Assembly: GCA_024220525.1 (NCBI GenBank)
Contig: JAMYWO010000011.1
Coordinates: 161,787 to 188,645, forward strand
Length of the DNA stretch: 26,859 bases
Source: Cochliopodium minus
Taxonomy: Eukaryota; Discosea; Himatismenida; Cochliopodiidae
Reading direction: 5' to 3'
In this document: positions 16-23,134 of the stretch, piece by piece
Layout of the letters: each line of letters starts with the position of its first letter
Numbering within the stretch: the first letter of the stretch is position 1
The notes under the pieces: model-generated
Databases searched by the model: none
The model's input: the letters and a program-made list of their open reading frames with translations, nothing else
What the model was told of the DNA's origin: nothing
Made by a program: the position numbers and the translations under genes

Positions 16-622
16 TCATAAATTAGATTTTTTTTTATCTAATTGTTTATTGCTATTTGATTCTTTTGATTCTTTTGATGCTTCTCTTGTAATTGTAAAC
101 AACCATCTTTCCCAAGCACCCCTTACAGAAGTTAGATTTACAGTTGTATTAGAATCTCCTCTCAAATAAGTTTGAGTTCCAATATTATATATTGCCCAGC
201 AATCTTCGCCTTGAACTCCAATCAATTGCCATTTTTCATAATTTGTAAAAGTGGATGGTTCTGGAATAAGAGCAACTGTTGTACAGCTCGTAGCACTCAA
301 GTAGGTTCCCCATTGAGCACTATATATATAACATATAGTCCCAAGAATAAATTGCAATCCAAACTTCCCAAATCAAGGGACTATTGTCAATATAAAAGAA
401 AAAAATTTAGAAATTTTATAGAAAGGGAAAGAGATTAAATTATAATTGATTTTTACGTAGTTGCGAGATTTGGATATCCTGCTGGATCACCACGAAGATA
501 GGTTGAATGGCTGACATTTTGTATAAAATTGCCACTTAAATTTTCTAAAATATTGGAAATTAAATTTAAATTAATATAATTATTTGTTTCTTGAAATTCC
601 TTTTACTTTTATTATTGCTCAT
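16..622 (-). pseudogene. Beta-trefoil protein, frameshifted tandem copy
   Basis: Closely similar to the intact neighbour at 910-1521, with the same three-exon layout: 607-622 (ATG at 622, phase 1), 457-544 (phase 2) and 16-380. The middle exon encodes the first lobe with the motif HSTYLRGDPAGYPNL. In the last exon the neighbour reads WEVWQMQF, but this copy is 2 nt shorter around 355-358. The reading frame therefore runs to a stop just after the junction, while the remaining two lobes (QWGTYLSA, EKWQLIGV, TYLRGDSNTTVNL, WERW) continue open in another frame from about 357 to 16. The three exons total 469 nt, which is not a multiple of three; the intact copy has 471. Everything else (splice sites, tail ending KKSNL) is preserved, so the break looks recent, or is a sequencing error in a functional gene. 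A short product starting at the internal Met near 357 would lack the first lobe. Confidence 0.72.
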
Positions 623-909: not shown

Positions 910-1521
910 TCATAAATTTGATTTTTTATTTTCGAATGTTTTTTTGTTTAGTGTTAATGATTTGTTATTAGATTGCACAGAATCAGTAATCAACCATCTT
1001 TCCCAAGCACCCCTTACAGTAGTAAGATTGACAGTTGTATTAGAATCTCCTCTCAAATAAGTTTGAGTAGCAATATTATAAAACGCCCAGGAATCTTCGC
1101 CTTGAACTCCAATCAATTGCCATTTTTCATTATTTGTAAAAGTGGATGGTTCTGGAATAAGAGCAACTGTTGTGCTGCTGGTGGAGCTGAGGTAGGTTCC
1201 CCATTGAGCATTTTTTATATAACATATAGTTCCAAGAATAAATTGCATTTGCCAAACTTCCCAATCCAAGGGACTATTGTCAATATAATAGAGAATTAGA
1301 AAAAAAATTTAGCAATTTTAATAAATGGAAGAGGGATTGATTATAAATGATATTTACGTGGAAGTGAGATTTGGATATCCTGCTGGATCACCACGAAGAT
1401 AGGTTGAATGGCTGACATTTTGTACAAAATTACCACTTAAATTAAATGGAGGATTTTCTAAATTTTGGAAATATAAAAATTATTAAATTAATTGTTTCTT
1501 GTTAATTCCTTTACCACTCAT
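910..1521 (-). CDS. Small beta-trefoil (fascin-like) protein
   Basis: Three exons: 1515-1521 (ATG AGT G, only 7 nt), 1358-1457 and 910-1273. They splice in phase (1, then 2) to 471 nt, 156 residues. The protein has three related lobes of about 40 residues, each with a TYL(R/S) core and a closing W/E-x-W: HSTYLRGDPAGYPNL then DWEVWQMQF; WGTYLSSTSSTTVAL then EKWQLI; TQTYLRGDSNTTVNL then WERWL. Threefold repetition with such Tyr-Leu and Trp positions is typical of beta-trefoil proteins of the fascin, hisactophilin and plant DUF569 type. These are cytoplasmic and bind actin, membranes or sugars. The binding partner here cannot be told. There is no signal peptide or membrane segment. The charged Asn/Lys-rich tail (last 25 residues) is probably disordered. 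The tiny first exon is supported by phase and by an equivalent exon in the tandem copy. The fold call is by eye, not by profile search. Confidence 0.75.
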
Positions 1522-2847: not shown

Positions 2848-5800
2848 ATGATGTATAGGATTTTCATATTTATATTCCTTATCTTCTTCATAGTTGATGG
2901 TTGCCATATTTTTCATTAAATCAAAAAAAATTTATTTATTTTTTTTTATTTTTATAGCCCTGAAAGTAACAAAAATTACATATACAGAAAAAAGTAAGAA
3001 AATTGGAGTTGGAGATGAAATTGATGCTATCATTTATGAATTATATTTCGGTTATTTTTTCAAATAGAATTGATATATGGATATTTGGTTTATTTTGGAT
3101 TTTTTTTATTATTCACAATTGAAAGATGGAGAATTATACTTAAAGAGCAATATAGATGGGAATTTGACTGCATTATCTGATATAGAAATGACATATGATC
3201 CTATCTCACCAAACACGTAAAAATAAAAAATAAAACAGTTTATATATCGAAAAAAAATAAATAAATATAACTACGGTGGGAAATGATGGGAATAATATTA
3301 TCCTCAAATTATGATTCCAATATATCTGACAGAATATTTTATAACAAAAATAAAATATTTTTATTCGTTTCTCAAAATTCAATTTTGCATAATAGTCTTT
3401 TTAATGATTCTGTGATACCAATTTGTATGGGTAAATCCACAAATAGATGTCCATTGCTTCCTGCTGGCCTAAAATCATTGATAGGAAGTCTTATATTTCA
3501 ATGCGAAGAGGATAAAACAATATCCATCAAACCATATGAAGATAAAGTGATCTATTATGTATATGGTCTTGGAGGTGAAAAAAAAAAACAATAAAAAAAT
3601 AATTTATTCAAGTTCATCTCAATATAAAAAAAATTTATAGCAACCAATCTAGATTTTTTGATTCCATTAAACCCTACACAAAATCCTTTTGGAAATTTTG
3701 TCAAAGATTTACTGTAAAAAAATAAAAAAAGAAATATTTTTTTTTTATTATCAAAATATATAATATATAGATGGTTGAATGAATCTATTGTTCAAGGAGA
3801 GACATTCCAAAAAAACAAATTATCATTTATGGTAAAAAAATTTTTTTTTTTCTTCCCGATCTTTATAAATTTATATTCCGATCTAAAAATATGTCAGGTT
3901 CTAAATGCGTATGTTAAAGAATCAATGAAATATACATTCAGGAAAAGACCATCTCTTGCTAAGCATTCAATAAAAACTATGAATGATATTTTTTTTTGTA
4001 GATTTGTTGTGAATGAAAATAATACATATACAAATTATACACTCTCAGATAAAGACGGGAATGTAAAAAAAAAATTTTTATTATTAATCCCTAATCTTAT
4101 TATAAAACCTGATAATAGATTCCTACTGGATTCGAAAACCTTATTCCACAACCAGCAACTTTGGGAGATGATTGTCCACCTGAATCACTTGTACTTGCCA
4201 AAGATTTGATTAGTAACATCAGCATTACATTGCCACAAGTGAGATCTTGGAATGAATTGGATGATGCTTTATGGTATAAGTGAATATTATTTCAAAAAAT
4301 TCTCATATTTATTCCATTTTTATTATTTAGGACACAAGCTTTATTAATGATGTCTCCAAGAATGATTAATTGCACAAATTTTATAAATGGAAAACTTAGA
4401 TCTACAAACTTTCAATCGGGTTACTTTGGTACAAATTGTTATGCATTCCCAAATACTGAAGGATGGCTTTCTGATCCATGTTGTAATCCATTTTATACAT
4501 GGTATGTTTACTTTTATATCATAAAGATGTATTGTATTGAATATAAAATATATATTAAAACAATAGGAGTGATAAATGCTGTAGTGAAAGATCAGTTATG
4601 TACAATGGCACTTTATTTCTGGCTCCGAAAAATAATGTTACTGATTATTGTTCATCCCCAGATCAGAGTAGCGCTTTGCTTGTGGATTATGTCTCTTTGA
4701 GAAATGTCATGGATGATCAAAACAATGTAAATCGTTTATCAATATAATCTAATTTGAACGAAACTTCTTAATATATTTTTTATTTTGCGAAAGGGTTGTG
4801 AAAACATAATTAAACCATACACATACTCTCAAGTTACTACTATTATGGATACAGCTCTTAACTGTTTCTACTCAATCTATAACAAAATTTACCCTTGCAA
4901 CAATACTTCCGATTGCTTGTGTGGATCTTGTGATATCATGAAAGGGACTTGTTCTGCTTGTAACATAACTGCTCAAGAAAAAGCCTTTGAGGTTAACATT
5001 TTTTTTTTTAACTTTATGTTTTTATCATTTTTAAAAGGCTTGTTATAGAAAAAGTGGGTTCTCAAGCGAAATCGAGGCTTTGGCCAGAAAGGATTGGGGA
5101 TTGCAAGAAGCATCAGAAGATGATTTCTACAAGTACTTCTTCAATGCATCAAAACCCAACAATTGTGTAGATCAAACTGGGCAAGTACTTTTGTTTGACA
5201 ACTCTTCTTGTACTGTGGGCTATTGCAGGAGGGTCAACACAGTATTGGAGTATACCAAGACAGCAACCATAAATACTTGTATTTTGCCAACATTTAACGG
5301 ATCTTGTCAAATATGTTTAGAAAGTGGTGTATGTACTCAACTTCCCATCATTGACATGTGTATTGCCTCTGACGTAAGATACAAGGACCAATCGTCTTGT
5401 AGTGGAGGATTCTTTGTATGGAATCAATTTGAAAACTTGTGTTACTTCCGAGGTTCTCAGGGTGCTGTAAGGGATTGTCAATGTGCCTCTGGAGTCAATA
5501 ACAACACCCTTTGTAATGCTGGTTTTTGTTCTAACACTACCACCAAGGCAAATTGTGTATCTGGTCCTGGTGATTCTGTTTACAAGTATTATGATGATAC
5601 TTTGGCTACTTGTGTTATTATGGCCGATTCTGCATTTACTTGTAGTTCTGTTGGGGGAACATGGAAGTAAGCAATCTTTTTTTTTCAAATTCTTAAACAC
5701 TTTTTTATTTATAATATTTCTATTTAAAGGCCTGGAAGAGTTTGGAGACCTAAAGGAACTATGTATAATATTACTTCTCAAGAACAATGTGATTCGCTTG

Positions 5801-8800
5801 GGGAAATGTGTATTATAAATGGAAGATTGGTTAGTAATTGTACTAACAGGAATGTTTGTATTGGAAGGTAAAAATTATTAAAAGTTTTTTTTTTTTTTCA
5901 TTCAACAATATTTCCAAAAAAAAAAAAGATGTCCAACATGTGAACCTAGCATAAATAGTCCACTTTCTATCTGCTATAACAAAAACTTGACAAGATCTGA
6001 TTGTGTTGCTGCTCAAGGACTTTATGATAGGAATTTGAACGTCTGTCTTTTTCCGTACAAAAACTATGACACCTGTTCAGGAAATGGTTTAATCTATGAA
6101 AATTGTTCTTCTCTTACTTATGATCAATGCGAAGCTTGTACCCTTAATTCTTCTCAACCTGACTGTCCTAATTATGGTCGAAGTATTTTGAATTGTGGTT
6201 GGAACTCTCAAAGAATGTGTGATCAAAATTTACCTAAAGATCAATGTGAAGCGAAGAAATATTGTCATGGTAAGGAAAATTAACATTTTTTAATCTTCTT
6301 TTTTTTTAAATTTTTTTTTTTAATCTTTTTTTTTAAATCTTTTTTTTCAAATCATAAATTTTTAACAAAGATCAATCTCCATACCCCGCTTGTGCTTATA
6401 CTACTGATACAATTGACAATTTTGGTTGTCCTGTTTGTGTTTGGTCTTTGAGAAATGAAAAAGGAGGAAACACAACAAATACCTCAAAGAGAGAAACGAA
6501 CATGTTCGTAGGATTGGGATACGAGTTTAAAGCAACTCGCAGTGAAATCTTTACCGATCGTGAAGAAGGAGAGAAACAAAATTCCAAAAGAAGCCATTTT
6601 ACTTCATTCAATCAAAGAAACTTGATAGAATCTTACAGCGTTTATGGTTGCATTACTCATTCTGTAAATAAAAAACAATGTCTTGAGACTGGTGCAAGAT
6701 GGATCAAACCACTTTTGACTGAACAAGAGTGTAGTTCTGTCTACGGTTGCAAAGATAATTTGGTAAATCATTTTTTATTTTTTGTTGATTTATTCTTTAT
6801 TATTATTTTTTGTTTTCTCAAATTTTTTTTTTAGTTGAGTGTTGGTTGCCAAATCAGAGCTAATAACACTATCGCCACCGTAGATTACCGTACTAACAAA
6901 ACAGAAATTGAGTGCAATGTAACATTCTTATCAAATTCTTCATTTTTTAAAATCATTCATTTAAATTAATCAACAATATTTCTTATTTTCAACATTAAAA
7001 ATTTCGTTAAACTTTTCCTTTTTGTAACATAAAAGGCTTGTGGTGGGACTTATGGAACAGTAAACACTTGGAGAAGCGGGAGAATGGTGCCACCTCAAAA
7101 AATATACAGAACATGGCAAACCAGATTGTTTTCTCCATTTTACAATTACGTCCCTTACATGACAGGCCAAGTGTTGACATCTTTATTGTCTAAATACGTC
7201 TACACTAGAACAAGTAATGCTTTTTTATCCACCATAGACTGCACCACCTCTAATATCTTCCAAATCGACGAGGTTTTGCGTTGTGACTGCGTTTCTGTCA
7301 ACAACACCATGTATGCTCCTGGTGCTTGCTATGCTTCCAACACTGCAATCGTTTTGGGCAAACAGCTTGTGTGCAGAGGAGACGAAAAAACTGTTAGGAT
7401 AAGTAAAAAACTTTTTTTTTGAATATATTTTTCTGAAGATTAATGTTGAATCTACACATCAAATTTAGTTTTTTTTTGATTTTTTATTCATTCTTTTGGT
7501 TTTTAGTTTTTTTGATCAATTTTTTTATTTATTGTTTTTTGTTTTTTTGTTTTTTAGGTCAAGCAACTTTAGGATTCAATCCCAAATCGGTATCAATTCC
7601 TGTATATTGCATTCGCCTTTCCCTTTCCTTCATTAGTGCCACTCAGTTTAAATCACAAGAAGTTGTTTCTACTTCCAGCTTGCTGAGCAGTTTGACATAC
7701 AAAGACAATCCCTTCGCCATTGTCAAAAACAAATACGGTATCACTGTGGGGCAATTGGTGGGCGATGGAATCGATTTGGAGGTTTCTTCTGATGTTTTTG
7801 GTTCCTATCTTAACACTAGGTACGAAGATGAGATAATATTTCCTGGTAAACCTTTTTTTTTTTAAAATAATTTTAAAATAATTTTTTTTTCAGATTATTT
7901 TTTTTTGTTTTTTTAATATTTTAATATTTTTTTATTTTTTTCATATTGTTTTTTAAAAAATAATTTAAAATTATTCATCTTTTAAACTTTTTGAAAAAAC
8001 TGAATTCAATCAAAAAAAATTTTGCTTTTAACAATAAATCATTTTTTTTATTAAAATTAAGAATATAAGAGAAGATCTCTGGGAAATGGAGTTGTCAAGA
8101 GAGCAAACAACCAAGAAACCAACAACTTCACTCTTTGCATTGACTCAAGACCTGACCAAATCAAAAATAGTGAAAAAGATTTTCCCGTATTTGATTTTGC
8201 TACCACCACTGATTTCAAAAACTGGTATCCTTTGAGACTCCAAAATGTAACTTTTAACGGAATCACGTTTTGTGGTTTCATCGCCACCAATTCTTCTGTC
8301 ATATTTCCTGTTTCTCTTACCAAAGATTGGGAGACCAAGAATTCTATCTTTGCCAATGATAAAGGTTGGAGTTTTTCTTATTTTTGATTTTATTTTTACA
8401 TCCCATTTCTTGGATTTTTTTTTCTTTTTTTCATTTTTTTTGTTTTTGTTTTTGTGCATTCATTTCTTTTTTATTTTTATTAATAATGATCATTTTTTGG
8501 GATAGAATCGTTTTATTTTTTTATTTTTTTTTTTTTTGATAAAAAAATCATTATTTAATTGATTTTTAAAAATTTTTTTAATCTTTTTAAAATTTTTCTT
8601 TTCAAAAAAAATTCAAAAAAGTCCATTAATTTCATTTTTTATTTTCGAAAAAAAAAATAAAAAAAATAAATAGCAATTCGAGATATAATGTACTTTTTAT
8701 CTGGAGCGATGTTCGTTCTTTTCATAGCTTGCATCGTGGCAATCATCTTCCAATTTGTAATCAAACCAAAGTTCAACATCAGTAAAATCAGTTTGATTTT

Positions 8801-11159
8801 CTTGCTTTTCTACAGTGGCTTGAGGGCTGCTTACTTCTTGCTTTTCGCTCGTGAGAAGTTGTCCGAAATTTTGGACAGCAATCCCTCTGGTTATTTCGTT
8901 TTGGCTGAGCTCCCTTATTACATCTTTATTTCCATTTTCATTCTTTTGATTATCTTTTGGGTAAGAAATTTTAACAAATTCAATTTTTATTTATAATTTA
9001 TGAATTTTTTTATTTTATATTTATATTTTTTTTTAAATAAATATTAATTTTATTGTTTATTTTTCATTTTTAAAATTTTTTTTCAATTTTTTTATTTTTT
9101 TATTTTTTCTATTTTTTAAAATAATATTTATTTTATTGTTTATTTATTATTTTGTTAATGTTTCGTTAAGATTTTTTTTATGTTTTAAAATGATTTTCAA
9201 TTATTTTTTTTTTATTTTTTTTAATGATTTGAATACTCATTATTATTTTTTTTTTGATTGTTTTATTTTCATTTATTTTTTTCAAATTTAATCTTTAGTG
9301 GAAAATCAGCAAGTCAACAGCATCCATCTTGAGATTAATGATAGTTCCTGTTTTGGTCGTCAACTTTTTGCTCTACGCTTTCTTTGTGGCTGTTTGTATA
9401 GTCGCTGCTGTGGTTAAAGGAAACGGCGCGACAGTTTTGAACAAAGGTAAGAAAAATTTTTTTAAAAAAAAAATTTTTTTAAAAAAAAAATTAAATCAAA
9501 AAAATTAAAATTCAATCAAAAAAATTAAAATTCAAAAAATTCAAAAACAAAAAATTTTTAAAAAAAATGAAAAAAAATTATATTAAAAAAATTAAAATTC
9601 AAAAATTAAAATAAAAAAAAAATTATTTTAAAATAAATGAAAATTAATTCAATAAATTAAAAAAAAATATTTTTAGTGTACAAAATTATTGTTGCTTCCA
9701 TTGCTTTTGCTTTGATTATAGCCGCCTGGATTTTCGGAGGTATTGTGTTAAAATCAGCCTATAAAGGATTCAAAATGAGAACAAAGGGAAGAAAAGCAAA
9801 GATTCCCGCATACCTCATCCGTACCTTCATCATTCTCATTGTTACTTCCATTGCTCTTTTGTTTCAAATCATTTATCTTCTCTATGTTACTTTTAATAAA
9901 ACTCCAAGTAATGCTATGTCTGTTGCTGTAATTACTTTTTTTTTTTTTTCGAACTTTTAAAAAAAAATTATTTTTTAATTTATCAACATCTATTTTGATG
10001 TTTTTTTTTATTTTAAAATTATTTTTTTATTTAGTCTTATTTTTAATCTTCACCTCATTTTACTTTATTAACAATTGTTTTCAAATAAATTTTTTAATTT
10101 TTTATTCCATTTTTTTTCTGATATTTATTTTGATAAAATTTTATTTTAAATGTTTAATAGTTTTTGATTTTATTTTCTGATATTTTTATTCAGTTAAATT
10201 TAGTTTTTCTGTTATTTTTTATTTTTTTTATTTTCAAATTTAATTTATTTTTTTTATTTTCAAATTTATTTTTCTTTTTTTAATCAAATTTATTTTTAAA
10301 AAGGTTTACTTTCTGGTCGAGTTCATCCCAGCATACATCTTGTTCATTCTGTTCGCATTCACAATCACAAAGAAAAAGGGAGAGACGAGAGGCTCCAAAC
10401 AATCCGAAAGCAAGCCCACCAAAACCGGAAAGAAGGGTTCCAAATACGGCAACAACTCCAACTCTGGAAATTCTGCAACCTCCAAAAACCGTTCTAAATA
10501 TGGCAACTCCTACAATTCCAATAATTCCAACAATACTCAAACTGACAATGTCAATAGTAACGCCAACAGTTTTGCAAGCCATTTGGATGAGAATAACGAT
10601 GAAAGCGCCAATCAGGTCAAACCTAAGGTTGATGATGACATTGTTGTTGGCAGCGACCACGTTAAGTCCCCTCCTAAGAACAACTATAAAGAACCTCAAC
10701 AGTCTACCTCTGATGATGTACTTTAATTTACTTTTTTTCTCATTTTTTTAATTTTATTTATTTTTATTTTTTGTTGTTTTTTAATTTTTTCGTTATTTTT
10801 TTATTTTTATGTTTCATTTTTTTTTTTTTTTATTGTTTTTTAATTTTTTAGTTTTTTCATAAAGTCAATTTTTTTTTTGATTTTTCAATTATTTTATGTT
10901 TCAATTTTTATTTTATAATTTTTAATGTTTGTTGACTTTTTTAATATTAGTTTTTTTTTTTGGGTTTTTTGTTTTTAATACCATTTTGATTTCAATTTTC
11001 ACCTTTTTTTTTTTCTAGTTAAATTTCCATGACTTCATACCACTGAAGAATTTAAAGTCTTCTTACCAAAAGTTTGAGGAATCCTCAGAGGACGATCATA
11101 ACCACATTGACACCGAAATCCCCGACTTTGTTCTTAATGTTGGCAATGGCAACAAATAA
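2848..11159 (+). CDS. Cysteine-rich 7TM receptor, TOM1-like
   Basis: Twenty-four exons join in phase to 5244 nt (1747 residues): 2848-2899, 2958-3050, 3126-3216, 3333-3574, 3641-3713, 3771-3831, 3898-4062, 4119-4273, 4331-4501, 4567-4726, 4794-4991, 5038-5666, 5730-5867, 5929-6269, 6371-6762, 6835-6918, 7036-7402, 7558-7845, 8062-8364, 8674-8960, 9299-9446, 9677-9927, 10304-10717, 11019-11159. Residues 1-17 form a hydrophobic signal peptide. Residues 18 to about 1335 are extracellular, with many N-glycosylation motifs and, from about 420, dense cysteines (CLCGSC, CQIC, CPTC, CEAC) in loosely repeated C...G..W....C units. Seven hydrophobic helices follow at about 1341-1364, 1371-1393, 1408-1430, 1441-1467, 1480-1504, 1527-1552 and 1564-1584. 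Motifs SGLRAAYFLLF, AELPYYIFIS and VEFIPAYILFILF resemble the THH1/TOM1/TOM3 family of plants and amoebae. The tail (1585-1747) is basic, then Asn/Ser-rich with two SKYGN units, then acidic. It is likely a surface receptor; ligand and coupling are unknown. Exon 4 starts at 3333, since the open sequence upstream of it cannot be joined in frame. Small exon errors are possible. Confidence 0.82.
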
Positions 11160-13120: not shown

Positions 13121-14671
13121 TTAATTTTTCTTTTTTAAAAAAGAATAAGAATCTAAATTCTCCAGAATCTTCCATAATACAAATTTGGGAACTTTTGGTA
13201 AAGATCTCTTTTGAAATTTCAAACAAGAAACAAAACAAAAAACGCTGGAAAGAAAAGGTTTAGGGAAAGAATGATGGCGTTCTATCTTCCACTCAAATAA
13301 CAACAGAATTTCCCAAAATGGAAATGTTTGGAAAGTTACCGAGTAAGGTAGGAGAATGTTTATTTGTTTCCTTTTTACCCAAACCCAACCTCCCATCTAA
13401 ATTGTATCCAAAAACCATCAAATCACCATTAGATCTGTAGATCATCGAGTGAACATATCCTAATGATATTGCTATGATGTTTGGATCATTAAGAAGGAAA
13501 GTTGGTTTTTTTTTGCTTTCAGTAGAGTTAATCCCCAATTGTCCAAAAATGTTGCTTCCAAAAACAAACAAATCTCCATTTTTCTAATTTTCAAATATTG
13601 AAATTATCAAAATTAAAAACACAAAAAAAAAAAGCAAAAATTGAATCTTACTTTGTAAATTGTACTGTGATCCCCACCACAACAAATTGATAAAATTTGA
13701 TGATCATTCATGATTAGTCTGGGTGTAGAAGCATTATGGGTATCATCAGTACCTAATTGTCCATTGATATTTTTTCCCAATCCGTAAACCTCTCCATCTT
13801 TTGTAAGATAAAGAAAATGATTTTCTCCTTTATTCAAAAAATTATTGTTTAAATGTTAAACGAAAGATTTTAATTTTAATTTTATTATAAAAAAAAAACT
13901 GTTAATTTACCTCCACTTATAGATACAATATTTTCAACTTTAAATTTAGCTCCACCCTCGAAATCATTGCCATAAACTTTTAATTCATTTTGATTATTAT
14001 AAAAAGCAACATTGTTCCCTCCAACACACATTTTATTGATAGTTTTATCGTTGAAAATGGTTTTGAAAGAGTTCGCACTTGTTCCATTGTTTATTATGTC
14101 TAAGCCTGCTGACAATACATCTCCGTTCTTTTTGTAGATGAATGAGGATGAGTTTGATGCTCCGATAAATTTAATCTCTTTGTCAGTCATCACATGTTGG
14201 AAGGATGTTGAACCGTACGTTGATCCAATACCAAGTTCTCCTTACAAAAAAAAAAAAAAAATCAAAATTTCAATTTGAAAATGTTTTGATAGATGTTTTT
14301 AAAAAAAGCCTCTCTATCTTTTGATCATTTTGTTTTTCGTTTTTTTTTTTTTGCATCATTTCATTTATCTTTTATCATTTACCATCCACATTAGATCCAC
14401 ATGAATATAATTCTCCATTGTTTCTCAATAAAAGAGTATGCAATTGTCCACAACTCAATTGTTTTATTCCATCATCTCTTCTGCACATTCTTGGAACATA
14501 AACATTTCCAGCAGTTTTTATTCCGAGCGCACCCCCCGAATTGTATCCAAATCCATACAATATCCCATCTGAAAGAAGATAAAATTGAAATATTAAAGAA
14601 TATGAAAAAAAATGTTCAAATATACCAGTATAAATAAAAGAAAAAGTTGATACGGATGAACTTGTTATCAT
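13121..14671 (-). pseudogene. RCC1-repeat protein, C-terminal frameshift
   Basis: Tandem partner of the gene at 14729-16314, with identical exon structure: 14626-14671, 14383-14568, 13911-14240, 13652-13827, then 13583 onward. The first five blades of a beta-propeller are open (YGFGYNSGGALG, YGLGKNINGQLG, VFGSNIFGQLG, VFGYNLDGRLG), with spacing close to the partner. In the last exon, after FPNISILGNSV, it is 2 nt shorter than the partner (about 13296-13312) and meets TGA at 13293-13295, giving 342 residues instead of about 398. The lost domain (EWKIERHHSFPKPFL...KVPKFVLWKIL) is still readable in another frame down to 13121. RCC1 propellers act as guanine-nucleotide exchange factors or protein scaffolds; which applies here is unknown. 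It may be a truncated working protein, a young pseudogene or a sequencing error. Good conservation of the blades argues against long-standing decay. Confidence 0.75.
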
Positions 14672-14728
14672 TTTTATTTTTTTATTTTTATTTTTTATTT
14701 TTGATTTTAAAAATTTTTTTGTATTTTT

Positions 14729-16314
14729 TTAAAAGGAAGAGGAATCTAAATTCTCTAAAATCTTCCATAAAACAAATTTGGGAACTTTAGGTAAAAATCT
14801 CTTTTGAAATTTCAAACAAGAAACAAAACAAAAAACGCTGCAAAGAAAAGGTTTAGGGAAAGATTGATGGTGTTCAATCTTCCACTCATAAACAAACACT
14901 GAATTTCCCAAAATGGAAATATTAGGAAAGTTATCGAGTAAGGTAGGTTTTAGCTGATTTGGAACATTTTTACCTAAACCCAACCTCCCATCTAAATTGT
15001 ATCCAAAAACCATCAAATCACCATTAGATCTGTAGATCATCGAGTGGAAAAACCCAAGTGATATTAATCTGATGTTTGGATCATTAAGGAGAAGAAAGGG
15101 CGAATACTTGTGTTCAAGTAAACCAATCCCTAATTGTCCATGAACATTATTTCCAAAAACAAACAAATCTCCATTTTTCTAATCAAAAGTTTTTGAAAAA
15201 AAAATAAAAAAAATTTGCAATTAAAAAACAAACTTGCAATTAAAAAACAAACTTGGAATAATAAATTTTAAAAATTAAAAAAAATTAAATTATACTTTGT
15301 AAATTGCACTATGAGTCCCTCCACAAAAAATGGACAAAATTTGAGGATCTTTCATTATTAGTTGAGGTGTTTCAACTTTTTTAACATAACTATTAATTCC
15401 TAATTGTCCATAAAAATTACTTCCAAATCCGTAAACTTCTCCATTTTTTGTAAGATAAAGAAAATGATTTGCTCCTTTTTTAAAAAACTATGATTTAAAA
15501 AATAAACGAAAAAGTAAAAAATAAAATTAAAAATTTAAAAATTTAATTTTAAACATTTATTATTTATTTGTTAATTTACCTCCACTTATAGATACAAGAT
15601 TTTCAACTTTAAATTTAGCTCCACCTACAAATCTTTGTCCATAAACTTTTAATTCATTTTGGATAGTATAAAATGCAATATTATCTCCTCCAACACACAT
15701 TTTTATGATATTTTTATCGTTGAAAATAGTTTTGAAAGATTTTTCATTTTCAAATCTGTTTTCTATTATGTTCAACCCCGCAAACAATAAATCTCCGTTC
15801 TTTTTGTAGATGAACGAGGATGAGTTTGATGCTCCGATAAATTTAATCTCTTTGTCTGTCATCACATGTTGGAAGGTTACAGATTCACCAGAAGAAACTC
15901 CAATTCCAAGTTCTCCTAACAAAAAAAAACCCGAAAATTTTATTATAATTAATGTTTGATCCTTCTTAAATTCTAATTAGTTTAAAATTTTTTTTTTTTA
16001 TGAATTTTACCACTTGAATTTACGCCGCATGCATATAATTCTCCTTTATTGCGTAATATGAGAGTATGTTGTCTCCCACAGCTCAATATTTTGATTTCAT
16101 CATCTTTCCTGCATATTGTTGGTACATATACATTTCCATCTGTTTTTATTCCAAGTGAACCTCTCAAATTGTATCCAAATCCATACAATATCCCATCTGA
16201 ATAAAGATCAGATTGTGTTTAATGAAGAAAAATTGGATAGAAAAAGTTTTTTATTAAGAAAAATATACTGGTATAAATTAATGAGAAAATGGCAACTGAT
16301 GAGCTTGAAATCAT
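14729..16314 (-). CDS. RCC1-repeat beta-propeller protein
   Basis: Five exons join in phase to 1197 nt, 398 residues: 16269-16314, 16011-16196, 15580-15915, 15296-15474 and 14729-15178. About six RCC1-type blades are visible, each with a (Y/F)GFG-x-N-x-x-G-x-LG turn, such as LYGFGYNLRGSLG, VYGFGSNFYGQLG, VFGNNVHGQLG and VFGYNLDGRLG, and a following CGG/SLG-x-x-H-(S/T) strand. Blade boundaries largely match exon boundaries. The last 55 residues form a separate alpha-helical-looking domain (WKIEHHQSFPKPFLCSVFCF ... LPKVPKFVLWKIL) that I know only as a recurrent tail of amoebal RCC1 proteins, where a BTB domain often follows. There is no signal peptide. RCC1 proteins either act as Ran or other GTPase exchange factors or as adaptors; no Ran-specific residues can be claimed. 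The start ATG at 16314 is shared in position with the tandem paralogue, whose start lies 57 bp beyond this gene's stop. Confidence 0.85.
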
Positions 16315-16466
16315 TTTACTAATTGAATAAATCTTTTCGAATAAAAAAAAAAAGGGGAGAGAAAGAAAGCTTTTTTTTTAGTTTATTAAACTGAAATTAA
16401 TTATTTAACAACTTTAATAAACAATTTTGGAGGAGAAAAAAAAACTTATTTTAATGTTTAATTAAA

Positions 16467-18046
16467 TTACAAATAAAGGTGAGACAAATATTGGACAACT
16501 TTCATGGAAATTCCCTTTACAAAAACCTTGGAAACCAAAGACTTTGAAGAATGGGTTCTAAACTTGGAAATCAAAAGTAAAAGAGAAAGGATCTGATTCA
16601 GTTCGGAAGTTTCGGAAGTATTTTTTTCTTTTTTCTCCTCGTTTCTAATTTGGATGGCTTGTAACCAGAAGCAATGTAAAATAGGCTCCCATTCTGTGTT
16701 GTTTTCGGAGATGAATTTGATGAGGGAGGTGATGCTGGTTGTGTTTTTGAGGAGAGCTCCTTTGATGAGGTACTCTTTTTCTTTTGCCAAGTTTTTCTTT
16801 TCTTTGTAAAGCGTAACCAAATCTATAATAAAAAATAATTTTTAATTAATTTTGTTTATAGTTTTTTTTAATTTTTTTTTTACAATTAATTGCTTTTGTA
16901 AATCCTCTCATTGCTGCTTCTTCAACTGTTATAAAAAAATTTCAAAAAAATTTACACATAATTTTTTTTTTTTTTTTACAATAAAAGATAGCCTTTTCTT
17001 TATCAATCTTAACACTCTGAAAAAAATAAAAATTAATAAATAAAAAAATCAAAATAAAAAAAGAACAAAGAAAATAAAAATTAAAAATAAAAAAATTCAA
17101 AAAATCGAAAAATGATGATAAAAAAATCGAAATAAAAATTAAAAGTTCAAAAAATCGAAAAATGATGATGAAATTTTTTTTGTTACTCTTCCATGATGAT
17201 ACATCAAACCCAAGTTGAATGAAGAAGCATTGTGTCCCATTCTGTGGGCTTTTTCATATAAGTTAATGGACATTTTGATGTTCTCCTCACAACCATCTCC
17301 GTATTGATAGCTGATCGCCAAGTTGTTGATTGCAGCAATGCACCCTCCTTCTGCTGCTTTTTTGCACAACTCAAATGCCTTCATCACATCTTTTTCTACT
17401 CCTATTCCTTCCCCATACAGATAGCTTGCCATGTGATGAGCAACTTAATTTAATAATTTTTTAAAAAAAAATTTATAATTTTTTATTTAATTTTTTCTTG
17501 CAAATTTTTTTTAATTTTTAATTTTTACCATAAAATTCTTCTTTAGTTTGATTTTTTGCATCTTCGATGTATTTCTTCAACATACATGACGCAAGAATCA
17601 TATCAGTCTCGACTTCCCAACCATGATAATACCTTTTAAGTTAAGTTTAAAAAAAATCGCTAAGTAAAAATTTCGTTTAAAAATGAATTTTTTATTTTTA
17701 ATTAATTCCAAAGAAATTTGATAAATTCGAAAATTAAATTCATTTACTTCATGATGATTGCTAATTCATTCCCTTTAATCTCTGCCTTTTTTCTCCACAG
17801 ATTCGCAACTTCCACATCATCATCACTCTTTGCGATATCTTGAATTTGTCTCGATAAACCTTTGCAAATTTAAAAATTAAAAATCAAAAAAATTATTTTT
17901 TGGAGTAATTTTTTATTCTTCTTGCTGAATCATCTGATATATCAAGAGGGATATTTAAATTAAGATGAATATTCTATATTTTTGAATAAGAACTCACCTC
18001 CATTCTCTGATCTTCTCACCAAATCTTTGATTGTATCCATCATCAT
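16467..18046 (-). CDS. Sel1-like repeat protein
   Basis: Seven exons join in phase to 957 nt, 318 residues: 17998-18046, 17748-17859, 17529-17632, 17187-17443, 16980-17016, 16884-16925 and 16467-16822. Residues 1-85 are helical, with no known domain. About three Sel1 repeats (36-residue alpha/alpha hairpins) follow: ASYLYGEGIGVEKDVMKAFE / CKKAAEGGC; NLAISYQYGDGCEENIKMSI / YEKAHRMGH; NLGLMYHHGRSVKIDKEKAI / FEEAAMRGF. They carry the G-x-G and A-x-x-(W/Y) spacing usual for the family. Residues from 201 on are a Lys-rich helix and a Leu/Ser-rich end without repeats. Sel1 proteins are scaffolds, for instance in ER-associated degradation (SEL1L/Hrd3) or in signalling. This one has no signal peptide or membrane helix, so it is probably a cytosolic adaptor with unknown partners. 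Three ATG codons stand in a row at the start (18046-18038); the first was chosen. Confidence 0.85.
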
Positions 18047-19438: not shown

Positions 19439-20989
19439 TCAAATGGAGAAGATAGAGAAAGAATTGATGTAATTATTTTTCATAATTTCAAAGTAGAAAT
19501 TAGAATGACCATGAAACAAGGAAGATCCAAAGAGGGATTCTGGATTATCGTGGATGATGGGAGGGCCAAGATATCCGATCTCCTTCTCAATCTCCTTCCA
19601 GTTCATATGAGAATCAATTTCAATCCTCTCATCAATGGAAAAGGTGATATCAATAAGATCATTGGAAATTTCAACCAAATTGATTTCATTCAGAGAATTA
19701 TTGATAGAATTGCTTTTTGAAGAGGAATCATCATAATCAGAATTTTTTTCGGAGAGATTATCATCTCTTTGAGTATTCACAGTCTCATCGGGTTCAAATA
19801 TTACCACGAAATCACATTTGGAATACAATGAAAAATCGCTGTGAGAAGGGAGATTGGTGTGGAGGATGATCGAGATGATATGGTAGTTCTCAAAATCAAA
19901 GAGGATGTCAATACCCAGATCAAAGTAGTTGTAAAGACAACAGTTATTAGATTCAGAAGAAGAAAATTGATGATGGATCCTCATTTTGTTTTCGCCCTTT
20001 TGTATAATTTCATTTGGAGGTCCTATATAGAGGAGATAGGAAAAAAATAAATTAATAATCTAAAAAATAAAGTTCAAATTTGATTATTAAAAAGTTCATC
20101 TTCGTATCATTCCTATTATATTTGAATTATGGAAGTATATCAGATTATAAACTTTTAATATTTGTTAATATATTACAATATTCGATTTTTCTTTTTTTAC
20201 CCAAAATTGAAATGACATCTTGCAAAGATGATACCCCTATCTTTAAGATCCCACCTTTTAATTTCACAATTTCCCTTTTTACATCAACTTCTATCTTTTC
20301 CTTTGATTCCACCTTGAAATTTTTGACGTTCAATTTCTCGCCTTCGAATATTATCAAATGATCCAAAATGGGAGAAGTATTATCTGGAAGATTCACTGGT
20401 ATTTCCTTGTCCCTTTTCTTTGAAGAATATTTCTCAACAAAGATATCGTTATAGGATTGTGGGATAGGAAAATTGAAGATGAGGGAGGGATAGATCAGAG
20501 AATACATGAACTTTTTAGGATCATATCTTTAAAAATAAAGGATTTTAACTAAAAAATGATTTTTTATGATAAATTTAAAATTTAATTGCCTTCCAGGTGT
20601 TGTTGGTCCGAATATTTTATATAATTGAGAAAATGAAGGTGAAGAATTTCTTGCAATCAAAACATTATTGTAATAAATCTTGATCTTGGAGATATTATAC
20701 ACTATTATCTTTCTTAATGTTTGTTGATAGGGCTCGAATTCGAGTATGAATCCATTATCTTGGAGATTCAAGTATATTGGATCCTGATATGGCTCCTATT
20801 ATTAAATAACCTCTATAAATATAAACCTAAAAATTTTTTTTCTTTGAAATTCCTTACATTTTCGTTGAATGTAATCTTCACCCTTGGTATATCTGTCTCA
20901 TTTTGATAGATATAGGTTATTGCCTCCTTTATTGTCATACCAAAAAAAAATTTTCCCAAGCATTGATTTGGAATCAAATCATAATTCAT
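19439..20989 (-). CDS. PHAF1: UPF0183 family protein, PHAF1 orthologue
   Basis: Four exons: 20858-20989, 20590-20783, 20201-20526 and 19439-20022, together 1236 nt, 411 residues (human PHAF1/C16orf70 has about 420). Family landmarks occur in order: MNYDLIPNQCLG at the N-terminus; FEPYQQTLRKIIVYN and YKIFGPTTPG (30-108); YSLIYPSLIFNFPIP (115-130); SSLQDVISILGPPNEI (200-220); YNYFDLGIDILFDF and LHTNLPSHSDFSLY (240-275); and FGSSLFHG plus FYFEIMKNNYINS near the end. A Ser/Asp/Glu-rich insert separates the last two blocks, as in relatives. The known role of PHAF1 is in autophagy and phagosome formation, binding phosphoinositides at the phagophore. The second intron is GC-AG (donor AG|GCAATT at 20588-20590); the others are GT-AG. 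The ATG at 20989 gives the conserved N-terminus. It is divergent from the gene at 21353, 363 bp away. Confidence 0.92.
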
Positions 20990-22537: not shown

Positions 22538-22823
22538 TTTAAAATTAAAAAATTAAAAATTAAAATATGTTCATTAGTATTTTGGGAAAATTCACTTACA
22601 AAAGAAATCAAAATGAGAATTTTCAATAAAATCCTTTCCATAATCAAATCAGAATATTTTTTTGATTTAATTTTTTAATTTTGAAAGAAGAGAAAAAAAT
22701 ATCAAAAGTAAATCTTTGTATATTTTAAAGATTTTGTCTTCATAATTAAGAAAATTCTTTTTCATTCTTCATTTATTTCAATGATGAAAAAAAATAAATA
22801 AAAAATTAATAAAAAAATTATTA
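22538..22823. other. Spacer between nuclear-protein gene and tRNA
   Basis: AT-rich sequence holding the 3' end of the plus-strand gene. A plus-strand A7 run at 22811-22817 (T7 on the minus strand), just beyond the tRNA 3' end, would serve as the tRNA's polymerase III terminator. Nothing else is visible. Confidence 0.55.
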
Positions 22824-22899
22824 GCAACGTGCAGGATTTGAACCTGCGCGGGGTTACCCCCAACAGATTTCAAGTCTGTCCCATTAACCGCTCTGGCAA
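22824..22899 (-). tRNA. tRNA-Ser(UGA), 5' acceptor strand missing
   Basis: The minus strand folds as a class II tRNA. The D arm has GCCAGAGCGG. The anticodon stem is ACAGA/TCTGT, with loop CTTGAAA giving anticodon TGA. A long variable arm GGGG-TAAC-CCC follows, and the T arm is GCAGG-TTCAAAT-CCTGC. The 3' acceptor strand is ACGTTGC. TTCAAAT doubles as a good B box for polymerase III. The long variable arm together with anticodon TGA means serine, reading UCA codons. The expected 5' acceptor strand GCAACGT is absent: an N stands directly before position 8 and the sequence beyond it belongs to another gene. The base after the acceptor is T, where serine tRNAs normally have G, which is odd. Confidence 0.9.
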
Positions 22900-22900
22900 N
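22900..22900. other. N: probable collapsed assembly gap
   Basis: This N separates a tRNA-Ser lacking only its 5' acceptor strand from an ankyrin-repeat exon that starts in mid-repeat. Two genes truncated at the same base point to missing sequence. Confidence 0.75.
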
Positions 22901-23134
22901 TTTGATCGAAAATAAATGTGATATTAACGGACAAACGAATTTAGGGACTACTGCATTGATGAGGTGAAAAAAAAAAAATTTTTTAAAATATTTTTTTTTT
23001 AAAATTTTTTTGTATAAGATGTTGTTCTAAGATGTCAAAGGAAGGTGTTATAATGTTATTAAAATTGGTAAGTTTAACTTATTTTTATTTTTATTTTTAT
23101 TTTTATTTTTGTTTTTTATTTTTGTTTTTTATTT

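Follow-up and report, generated by a model that had tools for sequence, protein, structure and literature searches.

The window analysed here is a stretch of 26,859 nucleotides from Cochliopodium minus (assembly GCA_024220525.1, contig JAMYWO010000011.1, forward strand; C11:161787-188645 in the 44.65 Mb genome). Read in a splice-aware manner, it carries one gene on the forward strand (2848..11159) with 24 exons and an open coding sequence (CDS) for 1728 amino acids (aa). The encoded protein very probably combines a giant cysteine-rich ectodomain with a seven-transmembrane (7TM) core. Judged by homology, the gene is one member of a lineage-expanded family of about two dozen genes. We read this family as membrane receptors built on a 7TM core of the Pfam type PF06454, to which we assign a probability of roughly 0.5.

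The gene model comes from a Viterbi gene finder, for which the window served as training sequence; some exon edges were set by hand, and several donor sites are weak. All 23 introns are of the GT-AG type with a mean length of 136 bases. Their A+T content is 87.2%, compared to 63.2% in the CDS, 74.9% in the window and 73.6% in the 20 paralog loci described below. The corresponding figures given for Anaeramoeba ignava in PMC11550330 are 80.65% and 91.86%. Two candidate ATGs, at 2848 and 2851, may serve as start codon. Retention of intron 23 would lead into a TAA stop at 10724-10726. The original prediction, made from the letters of the window, had proposed 24 exons in this interval, as found here, and 1747 residues, a length that our model does not reproduce.

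A strongly hydrophobic stretch of 19 residues opens the protein and by inspection forms a signal peptide. Residues 1-1315, i.e. everything before the first transmembrane helix (TM1) with the signal peptide included, contain 74 cysteines (5.6%), while the remainder of the protein contains 0.5%. This part also holds 30 NxS/T sequons. In 2000 shuffles we obtained 17.8 +/- 3.7 sequons with a maximum of 30; sequons are thus enriched, although shuffles reach the same count once or more. Seven hydrophobic segments span residues 1323-1565 and are followed by a basic, low-complexity tail. Lysines and arginines amount to 3, 3 and 9 in the three intracellular loops and to 2, 3 and 1 in the three extracellular loops, which fits an N-out/C-in orientation with an extracellular or lumenal N-terminus. 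Signal peptide, cysteine-rich ectodomain with glycosylation sites and seven helices had all been predicted beforehand and are recovered in the 1728 aa model. The motifs quoted in support of the core, SGLRAAYFLLF, AELPYYIFIS and VEFIPAYILFILF, are located in TM2, TM3 and TM7, respectively. The shared motifs of these three helices presumably fit sequences of the plant protein TOM1.

The 7TM region was searched against the same genome. At E<=1 there are 62 exon matches, corresponding to the window gene and at least 24 other places, 22 of which have a best E <1e-3. The family counts from this search are lower bounds. The original prediction, made from one window, could not reveal that the gene belongs to a multigene family. 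Twenty of the 24 loci were fetched (all except C349, C116, C25 and C24), and 14 of them show collinear homology from the ectodomain into the 7TM region (L039 only to TM3). The six others are not full-length. In L031, L036 and L037 the juxtamembrane part and the 7TM region were found, whereby a diverged N-terminus is possible, and L044 is cut by a contig end. L038 and L042 provided 7TM pieces only, their gene models being wrongly merged with unrelated upstream genes, and are probably truncated family copies. Both loci (on C33 and C13, respectively) are without detectable ectodomain and lie beside coding sequence that by eye resembles unrelated genes, ankyrin-repeat genes among them. No relative was confirmed in prokaryotic genomes (492 pattern stretches) or viral contigs (400), collections that are not meant for eukaryotes.

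Twelve of the 21 7TM sequences (window and 20 loci) were aligned (alignment A1). L030, which lies near the window, as well as L035, L038, L039, L041, L042, L044, L045 and L046 were omitted owing to redundancy or poor gene models, and separate, partial Pfam scans were made for L035 and L042. Across the 12 sequences 22 of 259 columns are invariant, including R51, K148, Q209 and E235.

A 309-base intron lies at the boundary between ectodomain and TM exons of the window gene. Together with a gene model known from DNA alone, it leaves room for the explanation that two adjacent genes, one for a secreted cysteine-rich protein and one for a 7TM protein, were wrongly fused. The paralogs argue strongly against such a fusion. 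In nine of the 20 loci (L029, L030, L032, L035, L039, L043, L045, L046 and L048) a single stop-free frame runs across the position of the exon 19/20 boundary (aa 1316) with at least 15 matched residues on either side. The frame in L029 (C100) comprises 467 codons and spans ~310 ectodomain residues plus TM1-TM4. Given these crossing frames and the collinear homology in 14 of 20 loci, ectodomain and 7TM region belong to one gene, as had originally been claimed. We rejected the two-gene model, to which we give next to no credence.

Substitution patterns were evaluated as the ratio of nonsynonymous to synonymous rates (dN/dS). Compared to the C81 paralog, dN/dS is 0.26 in the ectodomain (1257 codons) and 0.17 in the 7TM region (252 codons). 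Compared to C100 the values are 0.32 and 0.11, which are rough since dS exceeds 1. Purifying selection acts on both parts and is weaker in the ectodomain. Collinear homology in 14 of 20 loci combined with dN/dS values below 1 (0.26, 0.17) indicates that the architecture is not due to chance.

Trees of the ectodomain and of the 7TM region (12 members) both support a group of the window gene, C81 and C100, but disagree on C453 (L035, C453:12000-21900). Its ectodomain groups with C45 (L032) and its 7TM region with another clade. In block-wise comparison C45 is closest over aa 1-1320 (43-70% identity). The blocks at 1290-1413 are mixed: at 1290-1350 the window gene reaches 0.56 versus 0.49 for C45, and at 1353-1413 C45 and C34 are equal (0.61). 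From 1390 on C34 (L045) is closest with 59-70%, compared to 33-47% for C45, and C453 looks C34-like from TM3 onwards. This mosaic points to an exchange between paralogs by recombination or gene conversion. An error of the assembly or of the gene model could produce it as well.

The relationship of the core was evaluated with Pfam and with profile-profile comparison. L036, which is 57% identical to the window gene, matches PF06454 (THH1/TOM1/TOM3) with an E-value of 1.7e-7 and 31.4 bits over positions 20-257 of 273; the curated cut-off of this family is 25 bits. The family consensus reaches 30.8 bits when compiled by eye and 29.3 bits over positions 18-262 when computed by majority, while the reversed computed consensus gives no PF06454 match. 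Three other places in the genome match PF06454 at E<=0.001 (C23, C141 and C256). Aligned with hhalign against three such TOM1-like proteins (the C256 model being incomplete), A1 reaches a score of 53.3 and a probability of 92.7% over 217 columns. The controls stay well below (40 block permutations, mean 20.6 +/- 3.3, maximum 33.8; 40 column shuffles, maximum 18.7; reversed, 16.0). Based on these comparisons, the 7TM core is probably a distant relative of THH1/TOM1/TOM3.

Several observations weigh against our reading of the gene. The window 7TM region alone matches no Pfam family and in particular not PF06454 at E<=1, and with its tail PF06454 does not appear at E<=5 either. L036 is the only one of 14 single 7TM sequences that passes the PF06454 cut-off. 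The profile is absent for 12 of the 14, namely the window, 10 of the other 11 A1 members and L035; L042 remains below the cut-off (0.0062). Individual TOM1-like rows score 16.1, 40.5 and 16.8 in hhalign, with only C141 matching alone, so that C141 and the combined profile account for most of the signal. On the functional side, trafficking, structural or adhesion roles are conceivable.

The sparse single-sequence matches and the single matching TOM1-like row would also be expected if the likeness to PF06454 were mere convergence of hydrophobic helices and the 7TM region an unrelated new family. Moreover the window 7TM region with its tail draws other profiles below their cut-offs, namely PF22251 (7.2e-5), PF08552 (0.0013) and PF11992 (4). 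PF22251 and PF08552 were rejected, as both vanish once the low-complexity tail is removed. Convergence appears rather improbable to us, given that L036 and the consensus exceed the PF06454 cut-off over nearly the full length of the profile and that reversed and shuffled controls fail. Since the window sequence itself is unmatched, its link to PF06454 is transitive and distant. The proposed kinship with THH1/TOM1/TOM3 is supported for L036 and the family consensus; the window protein itself is below detection. No classical G protein-coupled receptor (GPCR) family was found among the Pfam matches of the 14 single 7TM and the two consensus sequences, whereby HMMER filters drop most matches above ~0.1. 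Membership in a classical GPCR family was rejected on this basis. The placement outside the standard GPCR families, likewise part of the original prediction, agrees with these scans, in which no GPCR profile beat PF06454. A search of the Protein Data Bank (PDB) with the 7TM profile gave three matches at E<=10, the best being a V-ATPase subunit (2.1).

The profile ranking second for both consensus sequences is PF06664, WLS-like_TM (0.0059 for the consensus made by eye, 0.36 for the computed one), and a trace of it is seen in one member (4.2). This points to another possible role, that of a Wntless/GOST-type trafficking protein, whose lumenal domain would bind secreted cargo and whose core would escort it without signalling. 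In GOST proteins a conserved lumenal domain is located directly before TM1, which we count in favour of such a role. PF06664 however never exceeds its cut-off (at best 16.4 versus 28.3 bits, with the consensus made by eye) and is outscored by PF06454 in both consensus scans. Moreover Pfam finds no GOLD domain in the ectodomain. We hold a trafficking function to be improbable.

The ectodomain has no relatives by Pfam or PDB sequence search and is in this respect an orphan of ~1300 residues with 72 widely kept cysteines. Neither the window ectodomain (best E 0.3) nor a 1265-residue family consensus (best E 0.25) has a Pfam match over cut-off, and the PDB search with the ectodomain consensus gave no match at E<=10. 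The cysteine pattern is well kept: for 72 of the 74 cysteines, 13 or more of the 15 aligned sequences (window and 14 paralogs, with models that contain gaps) have a cysteine at the same position. In the cysteine-rich middle, internal repeats are indicated by weak profile-profile similarity only, none of it convincing (best probability 48.7%). A single-sequence structure prediction of exon 19 had a mean predicted local distance difference test (pLDDT) value of 41.6, too low to use.

Mean pairwise identity is 0.43 in the juxtamembrane ~200 residues, 0.34-0.37 in the other ectodomain parts and 0.17 in the tail (11 pairs); the value for the 7TM region is 0.44, a figure lowered by wrong or missing 7TM parts in the L039, L041 and L045 models. 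These numbers bear on the explanation that the protein serves adhesion or as a surface coat for feeding or holding cells, with a functional ectodomain and a 7TM region that is mainly an anchor. A large ectodomain rich in cysteines and sequons would suit such a role, as would the many paralogs with divergent ectodomains. No part of the ectodomain is however better conserved than the 7TM region, which is also more constrained (dN/dS 0.17 and 0.11 versus 0.26 and 0.32). Moreover the 22 invariant columns with R51, K148, Q209 and E235 exceed the needs of an anchor. We thus regard a primarily adhesive role as unlikely.

A receptor function is in our view about evenly balanced against all other roles, judged from the sequences. 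If the protein is a receptor, its ectodomain would face the outside at the cell surface, or the lumen if the protein resides in the phagosome/endolysosome. The more variable ectodomain would bind an external ligand, e.g. molecules on the surface of bacterial prey or other cells, and the juxtamembrane domain would relay binding to the 7TM core. The prey, matrix and mating cues named in the original prediction are putative ligands. A faster evolution of the ectodomain compared to the core (0.32 versus 0.11 for C100) is expected if ligands differ while the output is shared. The basic third cytosolic loop and the invariant residues of the 7TM region may contact a partner protein in the cytosol. 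The cases of TOM1 (ARL8) and GPR137B (Rag) suggest by analogy that this partner may be a small GTPase and not a heterotrimeric G protein. Passages of PMC3234234 describe TOM1 as acting with the small GTPase ARL8, and according to passages of PMC2530877 TOM1 shows no interaction with the G alpha protein GPA1, unlike seven other candidates. A link of GPR137B with Rag is given by a title cited in PMC12716839. Since TOM1 works with ARL8 and shows no GPA1 interaction, a small GTPase is as likely a partner as a G protein.

The plant proteins THH1/TOM1/TOM3 (PF06454) and the present family have the seven-helix core in common, with the family consensus covering the profile from 18 to 262 of 273. In contrast, a signal peptide and ~1300 residues with 74 cysteines are present here, and the window sequence is below detection. 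To our knowledge, plant members of the TOM1 type are without a large ectodomain, and we know of no ligand of TOM1. Class C, Frizzled and adhesion GPCRs carry a large disulfide-rich ectodomain on a 7TM core and are similar to the present protein in layout, but no Pfam match to them occurs in any scan of the family. The GPR137 family of animals, choanoflagellates and Dictyostelium is an ancient eukaryotic 7TM family and is thought to be related to TOM1. According to passages of PMC12716839, GPR137 is a receptor of the lysosome that lacks domains beyond its 7TM region, and its ligand is tabulated as 'Unknown'. The same passages report a weakly supported structural link of the Remi-sans-famille (RSF) 7TM family to THH1/TOM1/TOM3. 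RSF is described there as being without additional domains, which sets it apart from the present family.

Within the same genome, the TOM1-like protein on C23 (L001, ~960-2184) has a PF06454 core (54.1 bits) which by inspection follows a signal peptide and an EGF-like stretch. Its ectodomain is short, with six cysteines in the EGF-like stretch and Pfam EGF models below cut-off, and it is outside the present family. Judged from its sequence, this protein may represent another instance in which a TOM1-like core carries an ectodomain.

Among the open-licence papers listed for THH1/TOM1/TOM3, GPR137, Anaeramoeba and protist GPCR repertoires, the architecture is described in no title and in no opening part of an abstract. 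We provisionally regard it as a new design based on a 7TM family that is already known but poorly understood. Finding a conserved ectodomain of the secreted type (~1300 residues) on a TOM1-related core would point to an ability of such a core to pass on signals from outside, and a family bearing such ectodomains would give a testable handle on the role of the THH1/TOM1/GPR137 7TM fold. A more far-reaching idea, which we find tentative and somewhat doubtful, is that the ~25 loci represent an undescribed class of large-ectodomain 7TM receptors that use this fold in place of a GPCR fold. Their ligand-binding ectodomains would have diversified by faster evolution and by recombination between paralogs, with C453 resembling a C45/C34 mosaic, and would together serve to recognise a range of surfaces of prey or symbionts.

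Table 1. Coordinates of the gene, its exons and neighbouring features in the window.
Feature	Position	Strand	Evidence
Whole gene: signal peptide, cysteine-rich ectodomain, 7TM region, cytosolic tail	2848..11159	+	gene model, paralog homology
Exon 1: start and hydrophobic signal peptide	2848..2899	+	hydropathy peak 2.35, aa 1-19
Exons 2-12: N-terminal ectodomain and first cysteine-rich part, aa ~18-678	2958..5666	+	Pfam: none over cut-off
Exons 13-17: cysteine-rich middle of ectodomain, aa ~678-1119	5730..7402	+	weak internal similarity, best probability 48.7%
Exons 18-19: juxtamembrane domain, aa ~1119-1316	7558..8364	+	best conserved ectodomain part
Exon 20: TM1-TM3, motifs LRA..F and AELPYY...FW	8674..8960	+	
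Exon 21: TM4 and most of second extracellular loop	9299..9446	+	
Exon 22: TM5, basic third cytosolic loop (9 K/R), TM6, third extracellular loop	9677..9927	+	
Exon 23: TM7 (YF.VE..P....F) and cytosolic tail rich in K, S, N	10304..10717	+	tail hardly conserved
Exon 24: end of cytosolic tail and stop	11019..11159	+	edge set by hand
Open frame	16-372	-	
Open frame	910-1308	-	weak beta-trefoil/ricin-B similarity, below cut-off (1e-4, 8e-4)
Two RCC1-like stretches	~13300-16320	-	PF00415 1.1e-12 (one frame scanned)
Sel1-repeat gene	17139-17444	-	PF08238 1.4e-18
Phagosome assembly factor 1 homolog	19439-20059	-	PF03676 5.7e-33
tRNA-like element	~22822-22905	-	by eye; holds an N; no tRNA called by ARAGORN

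The two open frames at the beginning of the window are very similar to each other and probably represent a tandem duplicate. The two stretches downstream of the gene are likewise similar to each other and resemble tandem RCC1-repeat genes.

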